Of a stretch of 58,871 nt of DNA, positions 28,267 through 43,117 are shown in pieces. The stretch spans positions 1 to 58,871 of the forward strand of contig JAIETA010000008.1 in NCBI GenBank assembly GCA_019745575.1, written 5' to 3'. Every line of letters begins with the position of its first letter. Position 1 is the first letter of the stretch. The position numbers and the translations under genes are program-made. The notes under the pieces were generated by a model. That model saw only the letters and a list, made by a program, of their open reading frames with translations, was not told the origin of the DNA and ran no database searches. This DNA is from Reyranella sp. GTDB lineage: Bacteria > Pseudomonadota > Alphaproteobacteria > Reyranellales > Reyranellaceae.

Positions 28267-28321
28267 GGATCGCCCGTGTCGCTAAGACTTTGCCGCCGAA
28301 TCTGGCGCACAAGGGGGAGAC

Positions 28322-28828
28322 ATGGCCTCAGAACGCACCGGGGTCTATCCGGGCACGTTCGATCCGGTTACCAGCGGACACATGGAAGTGATGCGCCGCT
28401 CGTTGCGGCTTGTCGATCGGCTGGTGATCGGATGCGCGATCAACATCGGCAAGGGGCCGTTGTTCTCGCTCGAAGAGCGGATGGAGATCGTCAAGGAGGA
28501 CATCGCGGACTTCCCGGCGGCCGACCGCGAGCGCATCGTTGTGGTGCCGTTCGAGGGATTGTTGATCCACTTCGCGCGCGAGGTCGGCGCGTCGGTCATT
28601 ATCCGCGGTCTGCGGGCGGTATCGGACTTCGAGTACGAAATCCAGATGGCCAACATGAACGCTCGTATGGAGCCGAACATAGAGACCATCTTCCTGATGG
28701 CTTCCGACAGGCACCAGTTCATCGCCTCGTCGCTGGTAAAGGACATCGCGCGGCTGGGCGGGGATACCTCGCAGTTCGTCTCCAAACGCGTGTTCCAGCG
28801 GCTCAAGGCGAAATTCGCCAAGTCCTGA
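28322..28828 (+). CDS. coaD: Phosphopantetheine adenylyltransferase
   Basis: A 168-residue enzyme for the fourth step of coenzyme A synthesis: ATP plus 4'-phosphopantetheine gives dephospho-CoA. The nucleotidyltransferase motif is GVYPGTFDPVTSGHMEVMRR; most CoaD proteins have TGH and this one SGH, a mild change that keeps the catalytic His. IIRGLRAVSDFEYEIQMANMN and the C-terminal EHMF-like stretch (MASDRHQFIASSLVKDIARLGGD) are also present. AAGGGGGAG precedes the ATG. It follows gyrA after 55 bases, an arrangement shared by many Alphaproteobacteria. Confidence 0.96.
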   Translation: MASERTGVYPGTFDPVTSGHMEVMRRSLRLVDRLVIGCAINIGKGPLFSLEERMEIVKEDIADFPAADRERIVVVPFEGLLIHFAREVGASVIIRGLRAVSDFEYEIQMANMNARMEPNIETIFLMASDRHQFIASSLVKDIARLGGDTSQFVSKRVFQRLKAKFAKS

Positions 28829-28854
28829 CGCCGGTTCCGGCTGCCGCCCCCGCG

Positions 28855-28883
28855 TTGACCATGGGGCCGGCGCACCTTATACG
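28855..28883 (+). promoter_or_regulatory. Strong predicted promoter of tRNA-Lys
   Basis: TTGACC is followed by exactly 17 bases and TATACG. The predicted start site near 28890 lies in a GC-rich discriminator (GGGCGCCGCGCGGGG), the kind of sequence that makes stable-RNA promoters sensitive to stringent control. The tRNA begins about 35 bases downstream. It may also drive the polysaccharide-export genes that follow. Confidence 0.65.
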
Positions 28884-28924
28884 GGCGCCGCGCGGGGTTT
28901 CGGCCTGCAGCGCGACGCCGGAGC

Positions 28925-28999
28925 GAGCCCGTAGCTCAGCGGTAGAGCATCTGACTTTTAATCAGAGGGTCGTGGGATCGTACCCCACCGGGCTCACCA
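28925..28999 (+). tRNA. tRNA-Lys (anticodon TTT)
   Basis: A 75-base cloverleaf with encoded CCA. Acceptor arms GAGCCCG and CGGGCTC pair fully. The D arm is GCTC/GAGC, and the anticodon stem TCTGA/TCAGA holds the loop CTTTTAA with anticodon TTT. The variable loop is GGGTC and the T stem is GTGGG/CCCAC. The T loop reads ATCGTAC, so positions 54 and 58 are A and T instead of the usual T and A. Only 28 bases separate the CCA end from the next start codon and no terminator is present there. Confidence 0.95.
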
Positions 29000-29027
29000 C
29001 TGGTCCAGAGAAGGAGAATTGCGGCTC

Positions 29028-29903
29028 ATGCCGTCGGTGAAAGTCGTGAACGGCAAGCAGATCGTGGTCGAGAACCTCGGCCCGCTCGGCCGCGCCTCCC
29101 GGTTCGTCACGAGGCCTTTCGAACAGATGGTGCAGCATCAGGATCTGATCGCCGCCATCCTTCGCCGCGAGATCCGCGAGCGCTTCAAGGGATCGGTCGC
29201 CGGCTGGATCTGGGCGGTGGTTGCGCCGCTGCTTGCCATCACCGTCTATTCCTTCGCCTTTTCCACGAACCTGAAACTGCCGGGCTCGGAAGGCGATGGC
29301 CCGATCGTCACCTACTCGCTGTTCATCTTCAGCGGCATCATCGTCTTCAATTTCTGGTCCGAGATGGCGTTTCGCGCGCCGATGCTGCTCCACGAGTACA
29401 CGCACTTCATCAAGCAGACGATCTTTCCCAGCGACATGCTGGCCGTGATCTCGACCCTGCGAGCGACGGCCTACACTCTGATCTCGATCGGCGTCATGCT
29501 GATCTTTCAGCTCGCCGTCACGGGCAGTCTGCCGTGGACCGTGTTGCTGATGCCGCTGATCTTCATCCCCTTCATGGCCTTCCTGATCGGAATGTCGTGG
29601 TTTTTGTGCGCGATCGGCGCCTTCACCCGCGACGCCGGCTATTTCATGATCAACGTGGTGCCGTTGTTCATGTTCGCCACGCCGATCTTCTACCAGCACG
29701 GCACGCTGCCGGCGCCGTTCGATTTCTGGATCTATGCCAATGCGCTCACCGGCTATGTCGAGGTCATGCGTGACATCGTGCTGCTGGGAAAGGTGCCGAA
29801 CCTGATCGTCTACGGGTGGACCCTGTTCACTTCGGTCTTCACTTTCTATTTCGGCTATTGGTTCTTCGACAGGTACCGCAATGTCATCGTCGACGTCATC
29901 TGA
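29028..29903 (+). CDS. ABC-2 type polysaccharide/glycoconjugate exporter permease (Wzm/KpsM-like)
   Basis: A 291-residue inner-membrane protein with six predicted helices. The amphipathic N-terminal region (LIAAILRREIRERFKGSVAGWIWAVVAPLL) is the hallmark of polysaccharide ABC-2 permeases. It would carry a lipid-linked or polymerised glycan across the inner membrane. I use the ATG at 29028, 11 bases after AAGGAG; the TTG at 29019 is too close to that site. The end overlaps the ATPase gene by 23 bases. It is the first protein gene after tRNA-Lys. Confidence 0.9.
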   Translation: MPSVKVVNGKQIVVENLGPLGRASRFVTRPFEQMVQHQDLIAAILRREIRERFKGSVAGWIWAVVAPLLAITVYSFAFSTNLKLPGSEGDGPIVTYSLFIFSGIIVFNFWSEMAFRAPMLLHEYTHFIKQTIFPSDMLAVISTLRATAYTLISIGVMLIFQLAVTGSLPWTVLLMPLIFIPFMAFLIGMSWFLCAIGAFTRDAGYFMINVVPLFMFATPIFYQHGTLPAPFDFWIYANALTGYVEVMRDIVLLGKVPNLIVYGWTLFTSVFTFYFGYWFFDRYRNVIVDVI

Positions 29904-30669
29904 CATCGTTGTCGAGGCAAAGCACCTCGGCAAGGCCTATCAGCTTTATGCTCACCGCAACGACTGGCTGAAGCAGGTCCTGTTCGGCTGGTGGAAAGCC
30001 TATTTCAAGCCGTTCTGGGTGCTGCGCGATATCGATCTCCACGTGAAGCGCGGCGAGAGCATCGGTGTGCTCGGCCGCAACGGTTGCGGCAAGTCCACGT
30101 TGTTGCAGGTCATCTGTGGCATGACTCTGCCCAGCCACGGCGAACTCCGTGTCACCGGACGGATCGCGCCGGTGCTGGCGCTCGGGTCGACCTTCGATCA
30201 GGAACTGACAGGTCGCGAGAACGTCCTGATCGGTGGCGCCGTGCTCGGCCTCAAGCGCGCCGAGGTCCTGCGGAAATTCAACTCCATCGCCGAGTTCGCC
30301 GGAATCGGCGACTACATGGATCAGCCGGTCAAACACTACTCGATGGGCATGCGCACACGCCTGGCGTTCTCAATCTGCGCCCACGTCGAGGCCGAGATCC
30401 TGGTGGTCGACGAGGCGTTGTCGGTCGGCGATGCGGCCTTCCAGCGGAAGTGCCTCGACTGGATCGACAGCTTTCGCAAGACAGGCACTCTCCTGTTCGT
30501 GTCGCATTCCATGGCCGAAGTCAGACGGCTGTGTACGCGCGCGATCTGGATCGAGGATGGCCGCATTCGCGAGCAGGGCGACCCCAACGAGGTTATCCGG
30601 TCCTATCATCGCGCCCTGTTGGTCGAGAAGGACGATGTTCACCGCTTCTCGGCGGGCGGCGAGAGATGA
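29881..30669 (+). CDS. ABC exporter ATPase for polysaccharide/glycoconjugate (Wzt/KpsT-like)
   Basis: A 262-residue nucleotide-binding subunit partnering the permease just upstream. The Walker A is GVLGRNGCGKSTLLQ near residue 65, the signature is the degenerate YSMGM typical of this subfamily, and the Walker B is ILVVDEALSVGD. The stretch APVLALGSTFDQELTGRENV is a further mark of the polysaccharide exporter group. There is no C-terminal carbohydrate-binding domain of the Wzt O-antigen type, so chain-length recognition by that route is unlikely. Confidence 0.92.
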   Translation: MSSSTSSDIVVEAKHLGKAYQLYAHRNDWLKQVLFGWWKAYFKPFWVLRDIDLHVKRGESIGVLGRNGCGKSTLLQVICGMTLPSHGELRVTGRIAPVLALGSTFDQELTGRENVLIGGAVLGLKRAEVLRKFNSIAEFAGIGDYMDQPVKHYSMGMRTRLAFSICAHVEAEILVVDEALSVGDAAFQRKCLDWIDSFRKTGTLLFVSHSMAEVRRLCTRAIWIEDGRIREQGDPNEVIRSYHRALLVEKDDVHRFSAGGER

Positions 30670-30672
30670 CGC

Positions 30673-31815
30673 ATGGAGGCTGCCGCCCCCGTCTATTTCG
30701 GGCTTGGCTGGTGGGCATTCGGCTCGGCCGTGCATTGGGCAAGCGCCGCACTCGGCCGCTGGCCTAGGCCCAGGATGGTGGTCCGGCACACTGCCGCCGA
30801 TTTCAGCATCGTCGCACCGATGAATGGCGCGAGCGACGCGTCCGCCATCTATATCCAGGCGCTGGCTGGTCTTGCTCGTGCCGGCGCCGAAGTGCTGATC
30901 TGCGTCGCTGATCCCGACGACGGCGCCATTGCACCGACCCGCGCTCTGTGGCCGGACGCGACGATCCTCGTCGGCAAGGACGATACGTTCAACCCGAAGA
31001 TGAACAATGTGCGCAAGGGCCTCGAGGCGGCCGGCCGGCCGATCGTGGCGCTGTGTGACGCAGGTGTCGTGCTGGGCGTCGAAGACCTTTGCCGGGCAGC
31101 CGCGCCCCTGTCCGAGACCGTGGGCCTCGTGCTGGCACTCAAGGCTGCGGCCGACCCGCAGGGCTTCGCCGCTGAAATGGAGCGAGCCTACATCAACGGC
31201 CATCAGGCGAGATTCCTTTTGGCCGCGGACCGGCTTGGCCTTGCCGTCGCATCCGGCGGCGTGACGCTCCTGTCGCACGAGACGCTGCAGCGTATTGGCA
31301 ATTGGCGCGGCTTCAACCGCTGGATCGCCGACGACTACTCGGTTGTCCGCTCCGTGCGTGAACTCGGCCTGGCAACGCGCCTGGGCGACTTCATGCCGCG
31401 TCTGCCGCTGGCTCGCCGGCAGTGGAGCGCGGTGTGGCAGCGGCAGGTTCGTTGGGCGCGCACCCGGCTGCGCCTGCCGGTATGGCCTCTGGTCCTCTGG
31501 GAGCCCGCGATCGGCTGGCTGGTCTGCGGCGCCGCGGGGAGCGCCGCGCTGGCCGCGGCCGGCGCCGGAACAGGTGTCGTCGCGGCCGCGATCGTCGCCC
31601 ACACCGTGGCGTGGCTGGCCGGCGAGAAATGGTTCGCCAGCGGACGAGGATTGGCATTCGGGCCGCGGGCGGCGGCGGCGGCACTGCTGCGCGAGGCACT
31701 GGGGCCGGTGCTGATGGCAAGCGCGCTCGGCAGTCGGGCCATTCACTGGCGTGGCACTGACCTTGGGGGACAATGGCGCTCCCAGGGGGATGGGGCGGCA
31801 GGGAAGTCCGTATGA
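30673..31815 (+). CDS. GT21-like glycosyltransferase (ceramide glucosyltransferase/HpnI-like)
   Basis: A 380-residue enzyme with the GT21 pattern: FSIVAPMNG, the D1 region VADPDDG, TFNPKMNNVRKGLEAA (the NPK-NN motif of ceramide glucosyltransferases), D2 in IVALCDAG, D3 in WIADDYSVVRSV, and a QVRWAR processive-type motif. Hydrophobic stretches at the N-terminus and after residue 270 place it at the membrane. Relatives glycosylate ceramides or hopanoids. The usual DSD-type D2 motif is reduced to CDAG, so activity is likely but not certain. It starts 3 bases after the ATPase gene. Confidence 0.7.
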   Translation: MEAAAPVYFGLGWWAFGSAVHWASAALGRWPRPRMVVRHTAADFSIVAPMNGASDASAIYIQALAGLARAGAEVLICVADPDDGAIAPTRALWPDATILVGKDDTFNPKMNNVRKGLEAAGRPIVALCDAGVVLGVEDLCRAAAPLSETVGLVLALKAAADPQGFAAEMERAYINGHQARFLLAADRLGLAVASGGVTLLSHETLQRIGNWRGFNRWIADDYSVVRSVRELGLATRLGDFMPRLPLARRQWSAVWQRQVRWARTRLRLPVWPLVLWEPAIGWLVCGAAGSAALAAAGAGTGVVAAAIVAHTVAWLAGEKWFASGRGLAFGPRAAAAALLREALGPVLMASALGSRAIHWRGTDLGGQWRSQGDGAAGKSV

Positions 31816-32186
31816 GCGAGGCGAGAGCGGAGGAAGCCATTGCCACGATCATGCTGCCGGAGCGTGTTGATTCGTCGACTTCGGAGTCGGTCGAAAAGTC
31901 GATGCTGGCGGCCCTGGGGCCAGGTGCACGGGTGATTGTCGACGGCAGCGCGGTTGGCTACATGAGCGCCGCCGGCGTGCGTGCTCTGGCCGTTGTCCTG
32001 CATCGGGCCGCCGAGCAGTCGGCCCGCATCGTCTTTTGCTCGTTCAGTGGCCCGGCAGCCGATTGCCTGCTGGTCAGTGGGTTTTCGCAACTGTTTGACG
32101 TCGCTAATTCGACCGAAGAGGCCGTCTTGAGGCTGCGTCCGAAGCCCGCAGGGGCCCCTGGCGGGCCGCTTGCACCCGCAGGGTAG
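31812..32186 (+). CDS. STAS-domain protein without the usual phospho-acceptor
   Basis: A 124-residue single STAS domain. I start it at the ATG at 31812, which overlaps the glycosyltransferase stop by 4 bases. The core strand-helix segment is VIVDGSAVGYMSAAGVRAL. In SpoIIAA-type antagonists the matching position after the first residue of this turn is a phosphorylated Ser (MDSSG), and in MlaB it is Thr; here it is Ala53 (S52-A53-A54-G55). It could be an unregulated anti-sigma antagonist or a MlaB-like accessory of one of the adjacent ABC transporters. No anti-sigma kinase is seen in the window. Confidence 0.8.
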   Translation: MSEARAEEAIATIMLPERVDSSTSESVEKSMLAALGPGARVIVDGSAVGYMSAAGVRALAVVLHRAAEQSARIVFCSFSGPAADCLLVSGFSQLFDVANSTEEAVLRLRPKPAGAPGGPLAPAG

Positions 32187-32280
32187 CACGGGTTAATTAG
32201 GTGGTAGGCTGAGGCAAGATCATGACAAGGGACGAGGCGCGGCCCGCAACGTTGCGACCGTTCCCGACGGAGATCGGAAT

Positions 32281-33435
32281 TTGACAATTTGGAGCTGGCT
32301 GCGCGCTGTCGCGCGACCTACCGCCATTGTCCTCGGCTTGGGTATTGGCGTTGCTGCCTGCACGGCGCTGCCCGGCGATGGCCCTTGGATGGGTGGTGCG
32401 CCAGGGACGAGTACCGAGGCGCTGCCGTTCGATGTCATCGACCTCACGCCGACCACCATCGCGGCGTACCGTCAGCCGGTCGCCATCGATCGTCCATCGA
32501 CCACCAGTTCGCTGTCCGCCGGCGGCCGTGTTGCCGTCGCGCCCGGCGATGCCATCAAGGTTCGCATCTTCGAGCCCTACGAAGGCAGCATCTTTCCGAC
32601 CATCCAGAAGCCTGGTGCCGATTTTGGCGTCCAGCGCGTCACCGACGACGGAACCATCAAAATTCCGTTCGTGGGCACTGTGCGGGTGGCCGGGCTTGAT
32701 CTGTCCCAGATCGAGCGCCGCATCGCCGACCAGCTGGCTGGCAAGGCGCAGGACCCTCAGGTGATCGTCGAGTTCGTGGCTGACCGGACTCATACGGTAA
32801 TGGTTTCGGGCGACGTCAAGAACCCCGGCCGGATCTCCATTCTCGAAGGCGTGAGATCGGTCGTCGAGGCGATCAACCGGGCTGGTGGCCCGGCCGGCAG
32901 CGCCGCGCCGGGCGGTGGAGTAGGCGCGGCCCAGGTCGAGGTCGTCGTGCGTCGGCAGGGCCAAGTGATCCTGACGGCGCAATTTTCGGAACTCCTCGCC
33001 GGTGGCGATATCGGCATCCAGAAAGGCGACGAGATCGTCGTCCGGCCCAATTCCCGACTATACACAGTCCTCGGCGCCGTGGCTAAGTCCGGAAATGTCG
33101 AGATGAACAGCCGCAACGTGACGCTTCTGGAGGCGTTGGGCCAGGTCGGCGGCCTGAACGACATCCGCGCCAACAAAACGGGCGTTTATTTGTTCAGAAT
33201 GGGGGATTTGCAGACCAATCCCACCGCCCGGGCCCGTGTTTTTCGACTGGACCTGATGCAGCCGGTGTCTATCTTCGTCGCCCAGCAGTTCGGGATGCAG
33301 CCTCGTGACGTCATCTATGTCACGAACGCTCCGCTCTATGAGTACGACAAGGTCTTGAGGTCTATTTACAGCACCTTCTCGCTGTATGGAGTCGTCAGGA
33401 GCAGTGGTACGGTCGCGCTACCCTCAGCGTTCTGA
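32281..33435 (+). CDS. Polysaccharide export outer-membrane lipoprotein (Wza-like OPX)
   Basis: A 384-residue export protein. The TTG start at 32281 is supported by GGAG 8 bases upstream. The signal sequence ends in a lipobox, GVAAC, so Cys27 is the lipidation site. The poly-export domain follows (VAPGDAIKVRIFEPYEGSIFP, DDGTIKIPFVGTVRVAGLDLSQIERRI), then SLBB repeats (HTVMVSGDVKNPGRISI and LYTVLGAVAKSGNVEM). The C-terminus, RDVIYVTNAPLYEYDKVLRSI, is Wza-like. No Wzc kinase or Wzb phosphatase gene accompanies it; a DevBCA-type exporter does. Confidence 0.92.
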   Translation: MTIWSWLRAVARPTAIVLGLGIGVAACTALPGDGPWMGGAPGTSTEALPFDVIDLTPTTIAAYRQPVAIDRPSTTSSLSAGGRVAVAPGDAIKVRIFEPYEGSIFPTIQKPGADFGVQRVTDDGTIKIPFVGTVRVAGLDLSQIERRIADQLAGKAQDPQVIVEFVADRTHTVMVSGDVKNPGRISILEGVRSVVEAINRAGGPAGSAAPGGGVGAAQVEVVVRRQGQVILTAQFSELLAGGDIGIQKGDEIVVRPNSRLYTVLGAVAKSGNVEMNSRNVTLLEALGQVGGLNDIRANKTGVYLFRMGDLQTNPTARARVFRLDLMQPVSIFVAQQFGMQPRDVIYVTNAPLYEYDKVLRSIYSTFSLYGVVRSSGTVALPSAF

Positions 33436-33479
33436 CGAACCTGGCGGGCGGCCAAGGGAAAAGTTTGGTACAAAGAGAC

Positions 33480-34478
33480 ATGGCGCGCACAAGAAAACTC
33501 ACCTGGAGTGCGGTGGGCGTGGCGGCTTTGGTCGTCGTCGCCATCGTCGCCATGTGGGTCACTCCCAGTCGCCAGACGAGCAGCGCCCAAGACGGTGCTC
33601 GGCAGGCGGCGCCCCTTATCTCGCGCGGCTACACCGATGCGCCGGCCGGCACGGCGGTCATCGCTGGCGACCCTACGGGCGGTGCGGTGATTATCGAACT
33701 CCGCATCACGGACGGCCAGCGGGTGAAGCGCGACGACATCATTGCGGTCCTCTCCAACTACCCTAAGGCCGATGTTGCGGTCCGTTCGGCTGAGGCGGAG
33801 CTGGCAAAGGCAAAGCAGCAGCGCGAGGCCATGATTTCCGGGTTCCGGACGGCCGAGATCGCCATGCAGGAAGTCGTCGTCAAATCGGAGACCGAGTCCA
33901 ACAAGCTGAAGGCGCTCCAGATGCAGCGATCGGGTCTGCCGCCCGACCAGAAGCAGCTGGAGATCAGCATCGCCCAGCAGAACCTCGAGCGCGAGCAGGC
34001 CAAGTTGCGCGTTCAGAAGGAGACGTTGGCCACCGATCTCGCGCAGATCGAGACCGACATCAACATCATCACGGCCAAGCTCGACAACGCGCAGACCACG
34101 CGCGAGCAAGCCTTGGTTCGTTCGCCGCTCGACGGTGTAGTGGTGCAGATCTACTCGCGGCAAGGCGAGCGCGTTTCCGGCAGCGGCATTGCCAAGATCG
34201 TCGACCTGAGCCAGTTGCGCATCCTGGCCGATGTCGACGAGTTGCATGTCGGCCGAGTACTGCCGGGCGGCAAAGTCGAGGTCACGTTCCGCGGCAGCAC
34301 GACCGTGTACAAAGGCAAGATCACCCGCGTCGCACCGACTGTGAAGCGGATGCAGCGGGTTGAGCCAGATGGCGGCTCGTCGACTGACGGCCGTGTGGTC
34401 CAAGTCGAAATCGAACTCGACGACCCGGCGAGCATGCCGCAAGTCTTGGGACGCGAGACGCGCGTCACCTTCCTCTAA
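33480..34478 (+). CDS. Periplasmic adaptor of a DevBCA-type ABC exporter (HlyD family)
   Basis: A 332-residue membrane-fusion protein. One N-terminal helix (VGVAALVVVAIVAMWVT) anchors it. Two half-lipoyl segments (GGAVIIELRITDGQRVKRDD and VRSPLDGVVVQIYSRQGERV) flank a long alpha-hairpin at about residues 95-205 that is rich in Lys, Glu and Gln, as in adaptors that reach an outer-membrane partner. The beta-barrel part follows at LRILADVDELHVGRVLPG. The ATG at 33480 is preferred over the TTG 15 bases earlier. Its stop overlaps the permease start by 1 base. Confidence 0.88.
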   Translation: MARTRKLTWSAVGVAALVVVAIVAMWVTPSRQTSSAQDGARQAAPLISRGYTDAPAGTAVIAGDPTGGAVIIELRITDGQRVKRDDIIAVLSNYPKADVAVRSAEAELAKAKQQREAMISGFRTAEIAMQEVVVKSETESNKLKALQMQRSGLPPDQKQLEISIAQQNLEREQAKLRVQKETLATDLAQIETDINIITAKLDNAQTTREQALVRSPLDGVVVQIYSRQGERVSGSGIAKIVDLSQLRILADVDELHVGRVLPGGKVEVTFRGSTTVYKGKITRVAPTVKRMQRVEPDGGSSTDGRVVQVEIELDDPASMPQVLGRETRVTFL

Positions 34479-35749
34479 TGGCGCTGACCCTGCCTGACGT
34501 CCCGGCGCTGCGACTGCGGCTGCGCGGATGGAAGCCGCAGTTTTCGCTGGCCCGCCTGCGCGCGGCAGCCAGAACGGCCACCGCGATGCCGCTGGGTGCC
34601 CAGCAACTCAAGCGCCAGCGCACCAGTACACTTCTGTCGCTGGCCGGCGTCACCGCCAGTCTGCTGGTGATCTTCGCCCAGCTCGGCATCGAACGAGCAG
34701 TCTATGACTCGGCGATCCGTCTTCATCGCACCGTGGCCGCCGACCTGGTCCTGGTGCCCTACGGCTTCAAGTCGCTGCAGCTCCATGCCGAGGTCCCGGT
34801 CGCCATGACCGACATCGTATCGGCCAATCCTTCGGTGGCGGGTACGATGCCCCTGTGGTTCGGCGTCATGTCGATGAGTCACGCCGGCATGCCGACGGCC
34901 CGCCGGATCGCGTGGTATGCCATCGACGTCGAGCGACCGGCGATCGACGTGCCGGGGCTGCGTGAAAACCTCTTCAAGCTGCGCGAGGCGAGGCGGCTTC
35001 TGTACGATCGCGAATCGCGTCCCTACTTCGGCGACCTCGGCGAGATTGCCCAGAATACCCCGGAAGTACCGGTGCTCGGCCCGCCCGACAATCGCGGCCT
35101 GCTGCGGCAACTCTATGTCGTTGGTACGTTTGCCGTTGGGCCCAACGTTCTCAATGACGGCGCGATCATGATGTCCGAGGCGACCATGGCCGAAATTTTC
35201 GGCGCCTGGTGGTCGGACCGGCCGGCCTTCATCGCCATCCGGCTCGCCGCCGGTGCCGACGCGACTGCAGTTCGGCAGGAGCTCAATCGAGCCCTGGCCG
35301 GCCGCGGCGAGGTGATCTCGATCCCTGAGTTGGAGCAGCGCGAGCGTACCTACTGGTCACGCGAGACGCCCGTCGGCTACATCACGGACCTCGGCTTCGT
35401 GATGGGCTTGATGATCGGCATGGTGTTCATCTACTACGCCCAGTATCAGATCATCCGGTTCTATCTGCCGGAGTACGCCATCCTGAAGAGTCTGGGCTAC
35501 GACTGGTGGTTCTTCCTTTTCATGATCGGCCAGATCGGCGCTGCCATCATCACGCCAGCCTTCTTGGTGTCATTCACGCTGGGCCGTTTCGTCTACGGCG
35601 CGACGGAGGCGGCGATGCATCTCGGCATGTCGATGGGCCTGCGGGAAATGGTCGTCGCTCTCGTCGCCTGCGTGGTCATGACGGTCGTGTCCAGCCTGTT
35701 CGCGATCCGGCGGCTCTGGAAGGTCGACCCGATCATGCTGTTCGAATGA
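34478..35749 (+). CDS. ABC exporter permease (DevC/MacB-FtsX type)
   Basis: A 423-residue permease with the MacB/FtsX topology: one helix near residues 50-70 (STLLSLAGVTASLLVIFAQLG), a large periplasmic domain to about residue 300, and three C-terminal helices. The start of the periplasmic part (HRTVAADLVLVPYGFKSLQ) and the LKSLGYDWWFF segment resemble DevC, the heterocyst glycolipid exporter permease, rather than LolC. It lies between its adaptor and ATPase genes, with overlaps of 1 and 4 bases. The cargo may be a glycolipid or a lipoprotein-like substrate. Confidence 0.85.
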   Translation: MALTLPDVPALRLRLRGWKPQFSLARLRAAARTATAMPLGAQQLKRQRTSTLLSLAGVTASLLVIFAQLGIERAVYDSAIRLHRTVAADLVLVPYGFKSLQLHAEVPVAMTDIVSANPSVAGTMPLWFGVMSMSHAGMPTARRIAWYAIDVERPAIDVPGLRENLFKLREARRLLYDRESRPYFGDLGEIAQNTPEVPVLGPPDNRGLLRQLYVVGTFAVGPNVLNDGAIMMSEATMAEIFGAWWSDRPAFIAIRLAAGADATAVRQELNRALAGRGEVISIPELEQRERTYWSRETPVGYITDLGFVMGLMIGMVFIYYAQYQIIRFYLPEYAILKSLGYDWWFFLFMIGQIGAAIITPAFLVSFTLGRFVYGATEAAMHLGMSMGLREMVVALVACVVMTVVSSLFAIRRLWKVDPIMLFE

Positions 35750-36468
35750 CCATGTCGGCCGACGCCCACGGCTTCGGGCCGCCAGTCGTGGAAGCGGTGA
35801 ACGTCCATCACCACTACGGCGATGGGCCACAACGCGTCGACGTGTTGTTCGACATCAACATGCAGGTGCGCGAGGGCGAGCTAGTGATCGTCACCGGCCC
35901 GTCCGGCTCCGGCAAGACGACGCTGCTGACCATCCTCGGGACCATGCGCCGGCCCTCCGAGGGCAAGCTCCGTTTGCTGGGGACTGATCTCGTGGGGCTC
36001 GGTGGCTCCGAACTGGACGTCCTGCGCAACCGCGTGCGCTTCCTGTTCCAGAAGCGCAATCTTCTGTCTTCGCTTACGGCTCTGCAGAACGTGATCGCAG
36101 GCGTCTCCACGACGCCTCTGTCGGATGTTGCCTGGGACGAGCCGCGCGCCCGCCATCTGCTCGGCCTGCTGGGGCTTGCCGACAAGGCCGATGCCTGGCC
36201 GGACGAGTTGTCGGGCGGCCAGCAACAGCGCGTCGCCATCGCCCGCGTCATGATCGGGCTGCCCGACCTCATTATCGCCGATGAACCGACGTCTGCCCTC
36301 GATCGCGTGGCCGGGCGCCTGGTCGTCGATCAGCTCAAGGATCTCGCCATGCGCGCCAAGTGCGCGGTGGTGCTGTCGACGCACGACGAGCGTATCTTCG
36401 ACGTGGCGTCGCGCCGCCTTCACATTGAGGACGGCCGCTGCTTCGAAGTGCCGATCCACTACCACTGA
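35746..36468 (+). CDS. ABC exporter ATPase (DevA/MacB/LolD type)
   Basis: A 240-residue ATPase. Walker A is [17 protein letters not shown], the signature is [17 protein letters not shown], and Walker B is [13 protein letters not shown] with the switch His in [10 protein letters not shown]. The [22 protein letters not shown] stretch matches the DevA/MacB family, which drives mechanotransmission-type export without moving the substrate through the membrane helices. I use the ATG at 35746, which overlaps the permease stop by 4 bases; an ATG two codons later is also possible. The 80 residues upstream in the ORF track belong to another frame. Confidence 0.92.
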
Positions 36469-36484
36469 TCGCGGAACAGGTGCG

Positions 36485-37726
36485 TTGCTCTTCGTTGTGG
36501 ATCTTGTCGTAGTCTTCTCGCTGGCCGTGCAGTTCGCCATTGCCGGCTATTTTCTCTATCTGCTCTACTGGTTGGCCAATCTGCCGTCGGTTGTTCCGGC
36601 GGCCCCGGCGCCGATATCCGAGCCGCCCAGGGTACTTGTGCAGATTCCGGTCTACAACGAACCGCTCGTGGTCGAGCGTGCGCTTCTGGCGGCGGCGGCA
36701 CTCGATTGGCCGCTCGATCGGCTGACGATCCAGCTCCTCGACGACAGCACGGACATCACGTCGGACATTGCCGTCCACGCCGTAACGCGGCTGCGGCGCG
36801 AAGGCGTTGCGGTGGAGCATGTGCGCCGCACCGAGCGAAGCGGCTTCAAGGCCGGTGCGCTTGCCGCCGGCATGGCGCTTTGCGACGCGCCCTTCATTGC
36901 AGTGTTCGATGCCGACTTCGTGCCGCCGGCCGACTGGCTTCGCCGCGCCATGGCGGCCATGCTCGCCAGTCCGGAGGCAGCCTTCGTGCAGACCCGTATC
37001 GAATGGGGCAACGGCGGGCGCAACTGGCTGACGCGTGCCCAGCGCCTTATGCAGGACGCCCACTTCGCCGTTGAGCAGGACATCAGAGCTCGACGCAGTG
37101 TGCCTTTCCAGTTCAACGGCACGGGCGGCATCTGGCGGCGCGCAGCGATAGAAGAAGCCGGTGGCTGGTCGCACGACACGCTGTCGGAGGATCTCGATCT
37201 GGTGCTGCGCACCCATCTCAAAGGCTGGACTGGCGTCTTTCTGATGGAGCCACACGTCGTGGGCGAACTGCCGCAGAAAATCGACGCCTTCAGCGCCCAG
37301 CAGAGCCGCTGGTCGAAGGGATTTGTCCAGGTGGCACGCAAGCTGCTCGGCCCGATCTGGAAGTCCGACTGGTCGGCCGAGGCCAAGTTCGTGACGACTG
37401 TCCAGCTGGGTCAGCAGCTCGTCTTTCCGGTTCTGCTGGTCGGTGCAGCGGCGCTTGGCCTGTCGATCCTGGGCCACGGGCATTTGCTCGGCGGATACCG
37501 CTTTTGCCTCTGGCTGTGGCTGGTGACGATGCTGGCCGTCCTGGTCGGCATGACATGGGGGGCCTATCGCCGCCTCGGTCGCGGCAGTGTCGTAGACTAC
37601 GTCGCGACAGCGGCAAGCGTACCGGCTCTGATCATCTATCTCGCGTTCGCCAACGCCGGCGCAATCGTCGGGGCTGGCTTCGGCAAGAAGACCGAGTTCA
37701 ATCGCACGCCCAAGACAGGCGGCTGA
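36485..37726 (+). CDS. Cellulose-synthase-like glycosyltransferase 2 (first of tandem pair)
   Basis: A processive-type GT2 of 413 residues. I choose the TTG at 36485 (after AGG, 16 bases downstream of the ATPase stop); the ORF-track start lies inside the ATPase gene. One N-terminal helix precedes the catalytic domain, with VLVQIPVYNE, LLDDSTDITSD, AVFDADFVPP, FNGTGGIWRR, SEDLDLVLR and the QQSRWSKG (QxxRW) motif. Two to three C-terminal helices follow and the protein ends in FNRTPKTGG. The family includes plant CslA mannan synthases and bacterial homologues, so a beta-mannan or glucomannan backbone is plausible. Confidence 0.88.
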   Translation: MLFVVDLVVVFSLAVQFAIAGYFLYLLYWLANLPSVVPAAPAPISEPPRVLVQIPVYNEPLVVERALLAAAALDWPLDRLTIQLLDDSTDITSDIAVHAVTRLRREGVAVEHVRRTERSGFKAGALAAGMALCDAPFIAVFDADFVPPADWLRRAMAAMLASPEAAFVQTRIEWGNGGRNWLTRAQRLMQDAHFAVEQDIRARRSVPFQFNGTGGIWRRAAIEEAGGWSHDTLSEDLDLVLRTHLKGWTGVFLMEPHVVGELPQKIDAFSAQQSRWSKGFVQVARKLLGPIWKSDWSAEAKFVTTVQLGQQLVFPVLLVGAAALGLSILGHGHLLGGYRFCLWLWLVTMLAVLVGMTWGAYRRLGRGSVVDYVATAASVPALIIYLAFANAGAIVGAGFGKKTEFNRTPKTGG

Positions 37727-37733
37727 CCCACCG

Positions 37734-39032
37734 ATGGCCATCCTCGCCACCCTGGCTCTCCTGTTCGCCATCGTGTTCATGGTCTGCTGCGCGCTGTTGG
37801 CCGCCTTCATCGGCAGCCTGCTCTACATGGTTGTTCTGCACCATCGCCTGAAAGAGGCCGGGCTGCGCCGCGAGGCGTTGTTGCTGGCTACACCCTTGCC
37901 GGCCGATTCCGACCTGCCCCATGTCGTCGTGCAGATCCCGTCCTTCAACGAGGGGGCCGTCGTTCGTCGCGGCGCCGAGTCGGCGGCCGCCCTCGATTGG
38001 CCGCGCGACAAGCTTCATATCCAGCTCCTGGATGACAGCACCGATGAGACGGCCGACATGGTTCGTGCCGTGGCGACGGAACTCAGGGGCCAGGGCTTCG
38101 ACGTCGTGGCCCTGCAGCGTACCGACCGCAGCGGCTACAAGGGCGGCGCACTGCATGAGGCGATGCAGAAAACGCCCTACGACTTCTTCGCGATCTTCGA
38201 CGTCGACTATGTGCCGCCGGCCGACTTCCTGCGTGTCTGCATGCGGCCCTTCTTTGCCGAGCCCAGGACGGCTTTCGTGCAGGCCCGGTTCGACTTCCTC
38301 AATCCGCATGAGAATGCCCTGACGGAAATGCAGATGGTCACGCTCGACGCCCATCTCGGCATCGAGCAGGCGACCCGCTGCTGGGCCGGTCATCCGCTGC
38401 CCTTCAACGGCACCTGCGGCATCTGGCAGCGCGCCGCGATCGAGGCCGGCGGTGGTTGGAAAGGCGACACCGTCACCGAGGATCTCGATCTCACCTACCG
38501 CGGCTGGGTGAAAGGCTGGCGTGCCTTGTTCCTGACGAGTGTGGGCGTGCCAGGCGAGCTGCCCGCCGACACCAAGACCTGGCTGCGCCAGCAGCAGCGC
38601 TGGCAGGACGGATTCCGCCACGTCTCCTTCCGGATGTTTCCCGAGATACTGAAAAGCCGCGACATCACGCCGTCGGCCAAGGTGGCGGCCCTGCTGCATC
38701 TCTGCATGTCGCTGAACCAGCCCGTGCTGCTGGTGGGCGTGGCGTCGGGCCTCCTGGCGGGCCTATTGGCGCCGCAGCTCGTGCCGCTGCTGTTGACGCT
38801 TTTCGTCGTCACGGTGGCCTGGGTGTTGTTCTGCGCCACGACCTTCCTGCGCGCCGGCCACAATTTCATCCGGGGTGGCGCGATCCCGCCGTTGGCGTTC
38901 GGCGTCGTACTGCTGCGCTTTGCCGGCGGTCAGGTCGCCACCGTCGTCCGGTCGCTGGGCGTGCACATCAAGAAGGCGTTCAGCAAGCCCAAGCCGGTCG
39001 TGTTTGACCGCACCCCGAAGAAGGGCGCCTAG
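37734..39032 (+). CDS. Cellulose-synthase-like glycosyltransferase 2 (second of tandem pair)
   Basis: A 432-residue paralogue of the preceding gene, starting 7 bases downstream. The same order of motifs is seen: VVVQIPSFNEG, LLDDSTDETADM, IFDVDYVPPADF, NGTCGIWQR, TEDLDLTYRG, QQQRWQDG, then C-terminal helices and a terminal FDRTPKKGA. The two proteins are clearly related but far from identical, so the duplication is old and they may make different linkages or work as a pair. Its stop shares CTAG with the convergent amidinotransferase gene. Confidence 0.9.
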   Translation: MAILATLALLFAIVFMVCCALLAAFIGSLLYMVVLHHRLKEAGLRREALLLATPLPADSDLPHVVVQIPSFNEGAVVRRGAESAAALDWPRDKLHIQLLDDSTDETADMVRAVATELRGQGFDVVALQRTDRSGYKGGALHEAMQKTPYDFFAIFDVDYVPPADFLRVCMRPFFAEPRTAFVQARFDFLNPHENALTEMQMVTLDAHLGIEQATRCWAGHPLPFNGTCGIWQRAAIEAGGGWKGDTVTEDLDLTYRGWVKGWRALFLTSVGVPGELPADTKTWLRQQQRWQDGFRHVSFRMFPEILKSRDITPSAKVAALLHLCMSLNQPVLLVGVASGLLAGLLAPQLVPLLLTLFVVTVAWVLFCATTFLRAGHNFIRGGAIPPLAFGVVLLRFAGGQVATVVRSLGVHIKKAFSKPKPVVFDRTPKKGA

Positions 39033-39991
39033 GCCAGCACACTTTCCCGCAGCAGCGGATGATGGGCGCAGCGCAGACCGCCGCCGGTGCTGATCGGACC
39101 ATCAAAGGGCAGCGGGATGACGTCGACCTTGCGCTTGCGCAGCTCTCCGATCACGCGGGCGTTGCCAGCGTCGATGATGACGCGGCCTTCCTCGAGCACC
39201 AGGCCATTGGTTGCCAGCAGGTTCGCTTCGTCCCTGGAGACGGTGACCGCATCCCAGTCCCGGAGCGACATCGGCAGGCCATCAATGAACTTTTCCGGGC
39301 ACCAGATGAGCAGACCCGGCTTGATCAACGCCAGGGCGCAGTCGAGATGGAGCACGTCCGACTTCATGGCGACGGGAATGACCCGGTAGCTATCGCCCAG
39401 CAGCGCCTGTAGCCAGTCGACGCCGGCGAGATCGGAGGCGCAGCCGGAAATGCCGACATAGATCTCGTAGCCGTTCAGCAGGGTATCGCCGCCTTCGAGG
39501 AACGGGCCGTCCACGCAAGCCGGCGAGCCCAAGGGCACGCTCGACCAGTGCGCGCCGCGCTGTTGAACGACCTGCTGAATGATCGGCCGCAGTCCATAGC
39601 GTTCGCGTTGCCGGCACTTCAGGCGGAGCGAGGCGTCGATGACGTGGTTGCCGATCACGATCATGCCGTCGCGTGGAAAAAGCTGGGCGCCTTCGCCATT
39701 GGGGGCGAGGAACGTGCGCTCGTCGCCCTTCAGGCGTTCCGGCCGGTGCACTGTGACGCCCTCGCGGGCGACCAGCTCGGCCAGCGTGTCTGCCTGGCGC
39801 TCGATGCGCATAGCCCACTCGGGATCGATATCGATCAGGCGGCGCCCTGCATGCTGCCGGCTGAATGCGTCGCTGGGCGGGATCAGCCAGCGCTGCGACG
39901 CTTCGTGGAAGACGACGAAGTCCTCGGCGGGCGAGATGCCGATGACGACTTCGCGGAGCCTGCCCCACTCGTGGTGTACGCCGAACAGCAC
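39029..39991 (-). CDS. Amidinotransferase family protein (glycine amidinotransferase-like)
   Basis: A 320-residue enzyme of the guanidino-group-modifying superfamily. LFPRDGMIVIGNHVIDASLRLKCRQRERYG closely follows the PRD..VGN.I.EA pattern of arginine:glycine amidinotransferase, and FLEGGDTLL, VLHLDCALALI and the active Cys308 in STGGGLRCAHHPL fit the catalytic Glu/Asp-His-Cys set. Members move an amidino group from arginine to an amine. The gene begins 2 bases after manC and so probably shares its transcript. The acceptor is unknown; an aminosugar, aminocyclitol or lipid amine would fit the neighbourhood. Confidence 0.78.
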   Translation of the reverse strand: MLFGVHHEWGRLREVVIGISPAEDFVVFHEASQRWLIPPSDAFSRQHAGRRLIDIDPEWAMRIERQADTLAELVAREGVTVHRPERLKGDERTFLAPNGEGAQLFPRDGMIVIGNHVIDASLRLKCRQRERYGLRPIIQQVVQQRGAHWSSVPLGSPACVDGPFLEGGDTLLNGYEIYVGISGCASDLAGVDWLQALLGDSYRVIPVAMKSDVLHLDCALALIKPGLLIWCPEKFIDGLPMSLRDWDAVTVSRDEANLLATNGLVLEEGRVIIDAGNARVIGELRKRKVDVIPLPFDGPISTGGGLRCAHHPLLRESVLA

Positions 39992-39993
39992 GC

Positions 39994-41400
39994 TCAGACC
40001 CGCGCGTAGATGTCCTCGTAGCGTACGATATCGTCCTCCTCGACATAATCGCCGGTCTGGACTTCGACCACTTCCAGCAATTCGGTGCCGGGGTTGGCGA
40101 GGCGATGGATGCCACCGATCGGGATGTAGGTCGATTCATTCTCGTGCAGGGTCATGATCTGGCCGTCGAGCGTCACCTCGGCGATGCCCTTCACGACCAC
40201 CCAATGCTCGGCGCGCCGGTTGTGGCTCTGCAGGCTGAGCTTGGCGCCGGGCTTGACCGTGAGCCGCTTGGCGCGGAAACGCTCGCCGCGGTCGATATCC
40301 TGATAGCTGCCCCAGGGCCGGTGCATCACGGCATGCTCGGTCGCGGCGCGATGCTTGCCATCCGACATGCGCTGCACGACGTCCTTCAGGCGCGGGAGGT
40401 TGTCGCGATGGCCGACCAGCACGGCATCGTTCATCGACACGACGACGACGTCCTCGACGCCGATCACGGCCGTCAGCGGGCCGTCGGAGCGGATGTAGGA
40501 ATTGCGCACATGGTCGATCTCGACCGGACCTTCGGTGACGTTGCCGGCGCTGTCGGCCTCGCCAATGTCGAGCAGCGCGTCCCAGGTACCGAGGTCGGAC
40601 CAACGGAACTTGGCCGGCACCACCCAGCATTTGTCGGTGCGCTCCATCACGGCGTAGTCGATCGACTTGGCCGGCGCCTTGGCGAAGGCCTCGGCGTCGA
40701 GGAAAACGGTCGAGCCGGTCTTCTTCGCCTTGGTCACGGCCTCTTCGGCGGCGGCGGCCATGGCGGGCTCGAAGCGCGCCATCTCGGAGAGCAGCAGGTC
40801 GGGCGGAAACAGGAAGTTGCCGCTGTTCCACAGCAGGCCCTCGGCGATGTAGCGCAATGCCGTCTGGGCGTTGGGCTTCTCGACGAAGGCCGCGACCTTG
40901 TGCACCGCGCCGATGTGCTCGCTGCCGATCCGGATATAGCCGTAGTCGGTTTTCGGCTCCGTCGGCGGAATGCCGAAGGTGACGATGCCGCCCTGGTGGA
41001 CGGCGGCAAGGCCTTCGCGGCAGCCGGCGAGGAATTCCCCGATGCCGATCACCAGATGATCCGACGCCAGCGCCAGTACGGCCTTGGCGCCGAGTCCACG
41101 CGTGTAGGCGGCGGCGGCGGCCATGGCAGGGCCTGAATCACGGCGTGACGGTTCGACCAGGATGTCGATCTCGACGCCGATGTCCTTGGCCTGGCTTTCG
41201 CACATGAAGCGATAGGCGTCGTTGGTCGCGATCACGGGCCGTGCGAACAGGTCGCGGTCGGCCACGCGCTCCAGGGTCTGCTGAAAGGTCGATTGCTTGC
41301 CGAGAAGCGGCACGAACTGCTTGGGCATGCTCTCGCGCGATAGCGGCCACAGCCGCTTGCCGGAGCCTCCGACCAGAATGACGGGTGTGATGAGGGACAT
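39994..41400 (-). CDS. manC: Mannose-1-phosphate guanylyltransferase / mannose-6-phosphate isomerase
   Basis: A 468-residue bifunctional enzyme that makes GDP-mannose. The pyrophosphorylase domain starts MSLITPVILVGGSGKRLWPLSRESMPKQF and includes FVEKPNAQTALRYI. The C-terminal cupin (type II PMI) domain has KLSLQSHNRRAEHWVVVKGIAEV and IPIGGIHRLANPGTELLEVVEVQTGDYVEEDDIVRYED. I start it at the ATG at 41400; the ORF-track extension of 30 residues lacks similarity. It supplies the sugar donor expected for the CslA-like synthases that converge on it. Confidence 0.95.
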   Translation of the reverse strand: MSLITPVILVGGSGKRLWPLSRESMPKQFVPLLGKQSTFQQTLERVADRDLFARPVIATNDAYRFMCESQAKDIGVEIDILVEPSRRDSGPAMAAAAAYTRGLGAKAVLALASDHLVIGIGEFLAGCREGLAAVHQGGIVTFGIPPTEPKTDYGYIRIGSEHIGAVHKVAAFVEKPNAQTALRYIAEGLLWNSGNFLFPPDLLLSEMARFEPAMAAAAEEAVTKAKKTGSTVFLDAEAFAKAPAKSIDYAVMERTDKCWVVPAKFRWSDLGTWDALLDIGEADSAGNVTEGPVEIDHVRNSYIRSDGPLTAVIGVEDVVVVSMNDAVLVGHRDNLPRLKDVVQRMSDGKHRAATEHAVMHRPWGSYQDIDRGERFRAKRLTVKPGAKLSLQSHNRRAEHWVVVKGIAEVTLDGQIMTLHENESTYIPIGGIHRLANPGTELLEVVEVQTGDYVEEDDIVRYEDIYARV

Positions 41401-41428: not shown

Positions 41429-43117
41429 TCAGCGGTCGGACGAGGCGGCGTGTCGAGCCGCGATATAGCCGAAGGTAAGGGCTGGGCCAATGGTGATGCC
41501 AGCCCCCGGATAGGTGCCGCCCATCACGCTGGTCATGTCGTTCCCGGCGGCATAGAGGCCGGTGATGGGGATGCCCCGATCATCGAGCACCCGGGCATGG
41601 CCGTCGACCCGCAATCCCAGGAAGGTGCCGATATCGCCCGGGATCAGTTTCATGGCGTAGTAGGGCGCTCGCGTCAGTGGCGCCAGGCACGGGTTGGGTT
41701 GGTGCGTGGGGTCGCCGTTGAAGCGATGATAGGCATCGGTGCCCTTGCCGAAGTCCGGGTCTTCGCCTTTTGCGGCATTGACGTTGAAACGCTGGACGGT
41801 TGCCTGCAGGGCCCCTGCATCGATCCCCATGCGGGCGGCGAGTTCCGGCCAGCTCCCGGCGGCCGTCAGATACCCGCTTCTGAGATGCGGGCCAAGCGGC
41901 AGTGGTGCCGGCCCAATCGCGCCCATGCCGTAGCGGCGGATGGCGCGGTGATCGCACACCAGCCAGCAGCTCGTCTCGAGCTGGTCACGGCAGGCCTCGA
42001 CCATTGCCGGCACGAAATCATGGTAGGATGCCGACTCGTTGGTGAAACGCCGGCCGGTGGCATCGACGGCGATATAGCCGGGCTTGCCGCGCTCATAGAA
42101 GTGCGGAAAGGGCAGGGTCGAGCCGTCGGGCTGCGGCACCAGCGAGACCGGGACCCAGGCCGCAGCGTAGGCGACATCCTCGGCCAGGGCGCCGCCTGCC
42201 GTCTGGCCGAGCCGGATGCCATCGCCGCGGTTGCCCGGTGGGGGCGCCGACCGATGCCGGCGACCGTCGCGTACATGGCCGTAGTACCGGCGTTTCAGTT
42301 CGTCATCAGCCGGGAAGCCACCGCAGGCCAGCACGACGCCGCGCCGTGCCCTGATTTCCTCACGCTGTCCGTCACGTTGCACGACCGCACCGACGACGGC
42401 ACCGGCATTCTGGATCAACTCGACGACCGGGCTGGAGAGCCAGAGGTCGATGCCGCGTTCTTCCGCCGACAGCGCCAGCGCCGCGATCAGGGCGTTGCCG
42501 TTGGCGAGCCGGGTGCCGCGGGGGTGGTTCACGCGGTCCATTGCGTAGCGCACGGTCATGCCCGCGACATGCAGCGCCGATCGCACGGAGCGCGTCATCC
42601 TGAACACATGGGGCAGGTCGCCGCGGCCCAGCATCATGCCGCCGAACGCCATCATGGTCTTGAGCGGAGCCCGCAGGTCGGCAAAGCGCCGGCCGAGCCG
42701 TCGCCCGTCGAACGGCAGCGGCAGCAGTGACCGGCCGCCCTGGGCGGCGCCCGGCTTGGTCGGATGATAGTCGGCCCAGACCGGCACCGCTTCGTAGCGT
42801 ACATACGTGTTGCTCTCGATGAACTCGACGGCCGGATTGCAGTTGTCCAGGAAGGCGTTCGCCAGCTCGAGGTTCAGGCGATTGCCGGCCTCCTGCTGCA
42901 GGTAAGTCAGTGCCTCGTCCTTGGAATCGGCGATGCCCAAGGCGCGGCCGTGGCGGTTGCCGGGGATCCAGATCACGCCGGCCGAATAGGCCGTCGAGCC
43001 GCCGAACTGCGGTTCCTTCTCGACCATCAGCACGCCCAGCCCGGCATGCGACGCGGCAAGCGCCGCGGCGAACCCGGCAGCTCCGGAGCCCACCACCAGC
43101 AGATCCGTTTCAATCAT
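41429..43117 (-). CDS. FAD-dependent oxidoreductase (KstD/fumarate-reductase flavoprotein type)
   Basis: A 562-residue flavoprotein. The FAD motif LLVVGSGAAGFAAALAASHAGLGVLMVEKEPQFGGSTAYSAG is at the N-terminus, with a second FAD segment near the end (GLYAAGNDMTSVMGGTYPGAGITIGPALTFGYIAA). This matches 3-ketosteroid delta-1-dehydrogenase and related FAD-binding-2 proteins, but such similarity does not fix the substrate. It lacks a signal peptide and so is cytoplasmic. Its ATG overlaps the stop of the ion channel gene (ATGA), suggesting coupled translation. manC follows 28 bases downstream. Confidence 0.85.
   Translation of the reverse strand: MIETDLLVVGSGAAGFAAALAASHAGLGVLMVEKEPQFGGSTAYSAGVIWIPGNRHGRALGIADSKDEALTYLQQEAGNRLNLELANAFLDNCNPAVEFIESNTYVRYEAVPVWADYHPTKPGAAQGGRSLLPLPFDGRRLGRRFADLRAPLKTMMAFGGMMLGRGDLPHVFRMTRSVRSALHVAGMTVRYAMDRVNHPRGTRLANGNALIAALALSAEERGIDLWLSSPVVELIQNAGAVVGAVVQRDGQREEIRARRGVVLACGGFPADDELKRRYYGHVRDGRRHRSAPPPGNRGDGIRLGQTAGGALAEDVAYAAAWVPVSLVPQPDGSTLPFPHFYERGKPGYIAVDATGRRFTNESASYHDFVPAMVEACRDQLETSCWLVCDHRAIRRYGMGAIGPAPLPLGPHLRSGYLTAAGSWPELAARMGIDAGALQATVQRFNVNAAKGEDPDFGKGTDAYHRFNGDPTHQPNPCLAPLTRAPYYAMKLIPGDIGTFLGLRVDGHARVLDDRGIPITGLYAAGNDMTSVMGGTYPGAGITIGPALTFGYIAARHAASSDR

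Follow-up and report, generated by a model that had tools for sequence, protein, structure and literature searches.

The closest described relatives of the gene examined here are enzymes of the guanidino-group-modifying (GME) superfamily. The catalytic triad of the amidinotransferases AGAT and AoaA is Asp-His-Cys (PMC3684758), whereas that of arginine deiminase (ADI) and dimethylarginine dimethylaminohydrolase (DDAH) is Cys-His-Glu (PMC11659421). Amidinotransferases and arginine deiminases share a covalent intermediate, which is ended by water or by an amine. The solved amidinotransferases AGAT (1JDW), StrB1 (1BWD), HsvA (5WPI), and SxtG (6U1R) have chains of 343-423 aa, arginine deiminase (ArcA, TIGR01078) has about 406-418 aa, and ArgZ and AgrE, which carry an additional domain, reach about 700 aa. 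We analyzed a 58,871-nucleotide stretch of Reyranella sp. DNA (contig JAIETA010000008.1, referred to as the window), which carries a 320-aa member of this superfamily. The protein belongs to a branch of the superfamily that lies between the arginine deiminases and the amidinotransferases and is misplaced by its best matches. The most noteworthy result is that its catalytic cysteine has been lost repeatedly within the genus while the gene has been retained.

The gene occupies positions 39029..39991 on the minus strand, with a GTG start codon at 39991 and a stop codon at 39031-39029. Directly upstream on the same strand is manC (39994..41400), encoding mannose-1-phosphate guanylyltransferase/mannose-6-phosphate isomerase, whose TGA at 39996-39994 is separated from the GTG by 2 bases, as the earlier note had described. 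A gene for an FAD-dependent oxidoreductase (43117..41429, minus strand) and one for a cyclic-nucleotide-binding ion channel are also found upstream on this strand. On the other side, a gene for a cellulose-synthase-like family 2 glycosyltransferase (37734..39032, plus strand) is arranged tail-to-tail with the 320-aa gene and overlaps its stop codon; it forms the other boundary of the location behind manC, designated site A. This glycosyltransferase gene is part of a plus-strand cluster that includes a DevBCA-like exporter and an OPX/Wza-like protein. The cluster (28276-39032, plus strand) is a surface-polymer cluster that is conserved in Reyranella and adjoins gyrA, and encodes an ABC-2 exporter, a family 21 glycosyltransferase, a STAS protein, the Wza-like OPX protein, the DevBCA-like exporter, and two cellulose-synthase-like glycosyltransferases.

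Profile searches placed the protein in the GME superfamily, in agreement with the earlier note. The Pfam ADI family (PF02274) matched with 34.1 bits against a gathering threshold of 22.8, and this was the only PF02274 protein found in its genome. The NCBIfam arginine deiminase model TIGR01078 (ArcA) gave 29.7 bits, far below its cut-off of 489.1. The PF02274 score, the matches to solved amidinotransferases, and the presence of orthologues throughout the genus indicate that the gene is not a chance reading frame, and a frame artefact was ruled out by these orthologues and by dN/dS values well below 1. An AlphaFold2 model of the protein (pLDDT 83.7, pTM 0.87) matched the alpha/beta propeller of GME structures. 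In Foldseek searches with this model, the top seven matches were all amidinotransferases; the four solved enzymes named above matched with E values of 1e-21 to 1e-23, TM scores of 0.77-0.84, and 21-24% identity in the fold alignment, whereas matches to the hydrolases NnhA, DDAH, ADI, and ArgZ were weaker (E 1e-12 to 1e-14). The DDAH, ArgZ/AgrE, and NnhA branches have a cysteine nucleophile and a related fold (TM about 0.6-0.7), but their sequence match to the window protein is weak. Sequence searches of the PDB likewise ranked the amidinotransferases HsvA, StrB, AGAT, and SxtG first, at about 1e-15 to 1e-18. The predicted fold thus leans toward the amidinotransferase side, and the amidinotransferase likeness proposed in the earlier note was reproduced at this level. 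Because the best matches of genes in this branch are amidinotransferases, such genes are readily annotated or interpreted as amidinotransferases themselves.

The active-site residues were then located in the alignment. The motifs quoted previously were all present: FPRDGMIVIGNHVID (D108), FLEGGD (E166, D169), VLHLDC (H215, D217), and GGGLRC (C308). The predicted nucleophile C308 is encoded at 39068..39070 (TGC), the predicted general acid/base H215 at 39347..39349, the predicted triad acid E166 at 39494..39496, and the two predicted guanidinium ligands D108 and D217 at 39668..39670 and 39341..39343, respectively (all minus strand). D108 was found in all full-length orthologues except that of genome G003. 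The 'PRD..VGN..ID' pattern of the earlier note could be seen in the window protein, but in sister species the Asn of VGN gives way to D, K, H, E, R, or S, and this part of the pattern is therefore uninformative.

For comparison, the family was aligned with seven amidinotransferases taken from plasmid records (five of them carrying this annotation, the other two being unnamed homologues) and six arginine deiminases. All seven amidinotransferases had Asp at the column of the triad acid, in FDAAD, FDAAN, or DGAQ, together with a C-terminal HCxTLD(xxR) or HCCSLD motif and further HxD and RxRYxE motifs. The six arginine deiminases had (I/L/M)EGGD, HLDT, (R/H)CM(S/T)CPIxR, and ARQRETNHLR. The corresponding motifs of the window protein are LEGGD, HLDC, RCAHHPLLR, and RQRERYGLR, the last of which resembles the deiminase motif. 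Across its family the triad motif is (F/Y)LEGGD, with Glu as in ADI in place of the catalytic Asp (Asp254 of AGAT), and the C-terminus has RC followed by Pro four residues and Arg seven residues after the Cys, the same arrangement as in deiminases (RCxxxPLxR). Residues D108, E166, H215, R307, C308, and P312 were invariant across 15 diverse family members. The protein therefore has in common with AGAT, StrB1, HsvA, and SxtG the PRD, HxD, and C-terminal Cys, but differs from them in the Asp of the FDAAD-type motif and in the HC and LD of the C-terminal motif; with arginine deiminase it shares LEGGD, HLD, a conserved Asn, (R/H)CxxxP(I/L)xR, and RQRE, that is, a Cys-His-Glu triad (C308, H215, E166) with two Asp ligands (D108, D217). 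In a maximum-likelihood (ML) tree, the amidinotransferases formed one clade with a support of 100, and every member of the window family fell outside it; the window family itself was a weakly supported grade with several low internal supports.

The Glu triad acid, the C-terminal motif, and the tree position led us not to file the window protein as an amidinotransferase. The residue check asked for in the earlier note thus gave a divided answer: the core catalytic positions of an amidinotransferase are filled, but the triad acid and the C-terminal motif resemble those of a deiminase, and a place within the amidinotransferase clade was not borne out. A divergent amidinotransferase, in which C308 would pass the amidino group of arginine to a small acceptor, either an amine or an amino acid, with no link to surface sugars, would account for the closeness of AGAT, StrB, HsvA, and SxtG in fold and sequence and for the filled core positions; given the Glu, the missing HCxTLDxxR motif, and the position outside the clade, we consider it rather unlikely. 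Judging from the motifs, hydrolysis appears to be a better guess than transfer, and the choice of Glu or Asp in the triad correlates with the type of reaction without proving it.

We therefore favor, with confidence about evenly divided, a reading in which the gene product is a GME cysteine enzyme that would act as a small-molecule guanidino hydrolase and that in some lineages is retained as a pseudoenzyme. D108 and D217 would hold the guanidinium group of the substrate, which we infer to be a small arginine-like metabolite, C308 would attack the central carbon of this group with H215 and E166 serving as acid/base, and water would complete the reaction, yielding a ureido product resembling citrulline plus either ammonia or an amine. 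The earlier note had named action as a deiminase as an outcome that would refute its proposal, and this outcome is now the favored hypothesis. This hydrolase reading draws on the deiminase-like motifs, the published triads, the tree, the invariant residues, and the catabolic neighbors of distant relatives described below; counted against it are the first rank of amidinotransferases by fold and sequence, the weak clade of the family, and the lack of carbamate kinase. Carbamate kinase (TIGR00746) was found above the cut-off in none of the Reyranella genomes searched, which had weak partial matches only, indicating that the classical energy pathway of arginine deiminase is absent from them. A hydrolase of the DDAH type, clearing methylated arginine, was suggested by the EGGD motif and by weak matches to the NCBIfam DDAH model in 14 of 15 family members. 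The window protein, however, scored 31.1 bits against a cut-off of 340 for this model, exceeds the bacterial DDAH chains found in the PDB (254-255 aa) by about 65 residues, and has D217 where the DDAHs of PMC11659421 carry Lys, which makes this role very unlikely. As the branch lies between the enzyme classes whose intermediate is ended by water or by an amine, it lends itself to the question of which residues determine the outcome.

Comparison of the orthologues revealed that C308 is replaced in 11 other Reyranella genomes, by Ser in eight (G002, G003, G004, G005, G016, G042, G044, and G804) and by Ala in three (G013, G046, and G807). Most Ser copies have D108, E166, H215, and D217 unchanged; G003 lacks D108. 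The Ala copies also show a change of HLD to HLE, together with in-frame deletions toward the N-terminus. Most orthologues, and all aligned relatives outside Reyranella, retain Cys308. An assembly error is an unlikely source of the loss, which was seen in G016, a single-contig, 100% complete genome, and in related genomes, with two Ser codons (TCG and TCC) and an Ala codon (GCA, in G013). The in-frame stops noted in G002 and G003 fall where the alignment ends on the C-terminal side, after open frames of 313-315 codons.

In the ML tree, the Cys-loss sequences formed one clade, with G004 and G005 placed apart from it. A single origin of the loss was rejected by an AU test in which the nine testable sequences were held together and column 308 was left out (p = 0.002), on a quick tree with a simple model and with the tested group named after the tree had been seen. 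The dN/dS ratio within Ser-lineage pairs was 0.16-0.28, compared to 0.06-0.13 for the neighboring glycosyltransferase in the same pairs, estimates of dS close to 1 being imprecise. Most of the genomes are metagenome assemblies. In simulations of neutral decay, such frames stayed open in 0.2-1.8% of cases at 0.3-0.45 substitutions per site. The low dN/dS and the rare survival of open frames under neutrality indicate that the Ser proteins are kept by purifying selection, under weaker constraint than their neighbors.

The proteins without Cys308 are probably non-catalytic and possibly substrate-binding pseudoenzymes. Engineered Cys-to-Ser mutants of DDAH (C249S, 1H70) and ArgZ (C264S, 6JV1) were, according to their structure titles, crystallized with bound ligand, which makes a substrate-binding role of the natural Ser proteins conceivable. 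It is possible, although we hold it only tentatively, that Reyranella has repeatedly made a natural Cys-to-Ser pseudoenzyme whose intact guanidinium-binding residues serve under selection as a sensor or binder of guanidino compounds. Another explanation is that the conserved role in Reyranella was already a non-catalytic one, in binding or regulation, and that the Cys could therefore be freely lost; this would agree with its loss in several lineages that retain most of the remaining active-site residues, and with dN/dS values far below 1. Nevertheless, the conservation of Cys308 in most orthologues and in the aligned relatives outside the genus, and the faster evolution of the Ser copies relative to neighboring genes, which fits loss of function and not indifference, make such a role unlikely, and we retain the hydrolase reading with loss of catalysis in some lineages. 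With repeated replacement of Cys by Ser and selection maintained, conversion of an enzyme into a binder is directly testable within one genus.

The earlier note had further proposed that the gene is coupled to manC and may add a guanidino group to a surface molecule. The pairing is not unique to the window genome: in 42 Reyranella genomes it was tight, with no more than about 15 bases between the manC stop and the start of the gene, in three it was loose (gap of 146-831 bases), and in 13 the genes were unpaired (12 with manC not adjacent, plus G037 from a separate comparison of sites), the remaining genomes being left out of these classes because the gene lay at contig ends. In eight genomes (G001, G028, G037, G053, G058, G059, G046, and G807), the gene occupies a second site, likewise conserved, which is flanked on one side by genes for a CydDC-like ABC exporter and a Bug-type binding protein and on the other by a glutaredoxin-DinB-like gene, names that were assigned by reading the sequences. 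In genomes with the gene at this site, manC adjoins the glycosyltransferase gene with no room for the gene between them, and the second site was empty in genomes G012, G022, G024, G036, and G043, which have the gene behind manC. Reyranella massiliensis is among the species with the gene at site A. In G002, G003, G016, and G804, the gene stays beside the glycosyltransferase gene and manC is missing there. The gene and manC are thus separable in both directions, and the position behind manC, a common but dispensable neighbor, is not evidence of joint function. Within this one genus the two genes are associated by position, which is not a sign of action on GDP-mannose-derived material.

These observations also bear on the proposal that the adjacent cluster exports a surface sugar derived from GDP-mannose, or a lipid head group, to which the enzyme adds a guanidino group. 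The tight pairing in 42 genomes and the convergent glycosyltransferase/export cluster are what would be expected of such a role. However, at least eight genomes keep manC by the glycosyltransferase gene with the 320-aa gene elsewhere, four keep the gene without manC, the inspected relatives outside the genus do not have it beside manC, and the catalytic Cys has been lost in several genomes that retain the cluster. No evidence that a surface sugar is guanidinylated was found, and we regard this proposal as highly improbable. The motifs and the tree make the amidinotransferase label unfit for inferring guanidinylated surface molecules or toxins from this gene. Literature searches on a Reyranella amidinotransferase, on guanidino exopolysaccharide with an amidinotransferase, and on the Enterococcus gene described below returned nothing useful.

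The gene was present in 63 of 65 Reyranella genomes, and searches of one further genus in the family and one further family in the order did not find it. Outside Reyranella its occurrence was sporadic, with five genomes among 387 of the class. Members at 32-42% identity were found in Margulisiibacteriota and Victivallales assemblies, on Persicobacter and Agrobacterium plasmids, in other alphaproteobacteria, and in Enterococcus faecalis DNA; manC was not seen beside the gene in any inspected neighborhood outside Reyranella. Genes for biuret amidohydrolase-like, histidine ammonia-lyase, agmatinase-like, and N-carbamoyl-amidase proteins were among the neighbors of the alphaproteobacterial relatives. 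As these relatives are 32-33% identical to the window protein, such nitrogen-catabolism neighbors, which fit a breakdown of nitrogen-rich compounds, are no more than suggestive. Two loci (L074 11814-14037 and L072 11743-12948) have N-carbamoyl-amidase genes at a distance of a few kb to distantly related family members, L074 also having an agmatinase-like gene, and represent a possible locus for the breakdown of guanidino/ureido compounds.

The homologue in E. faecalis DNA (L190 4301-5272) has 323 aa, aligns end to end with the window protein at 36% identity, and contains FIEGGD, HLDCAL, and FRC, but it adjoins mutS2-like, alkaline phosphatase-like, and surface-protein genes, with no manC. This record and a second one with a homologue (L191 8057-9028) are unannotated GenBank entries filed as Enterococcus phages. 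The mutS2-like, alkaline phosphatase-like, and surface-protein genes alongside the homologue make them look like host contamination, so the phage homologues are apparent only, the surrounding DNA reading as host chromosomal. By eye, the N-termini of the Margulisiibacteriota and Victivallales homologues (L054 9923-10951 and L055 1396-2466) read like lipoprotein or secretion signals, suggesting that the enzyme may act outside the cytoplasm there; no signal peptide was apparent in the Reyranella proteins. One genome of the Reyranella group (G011) has, besides the orthologue, a second family member (L075 7437-8411) that is 41% identical and in which the active-site residues are intact and the Cys is present.
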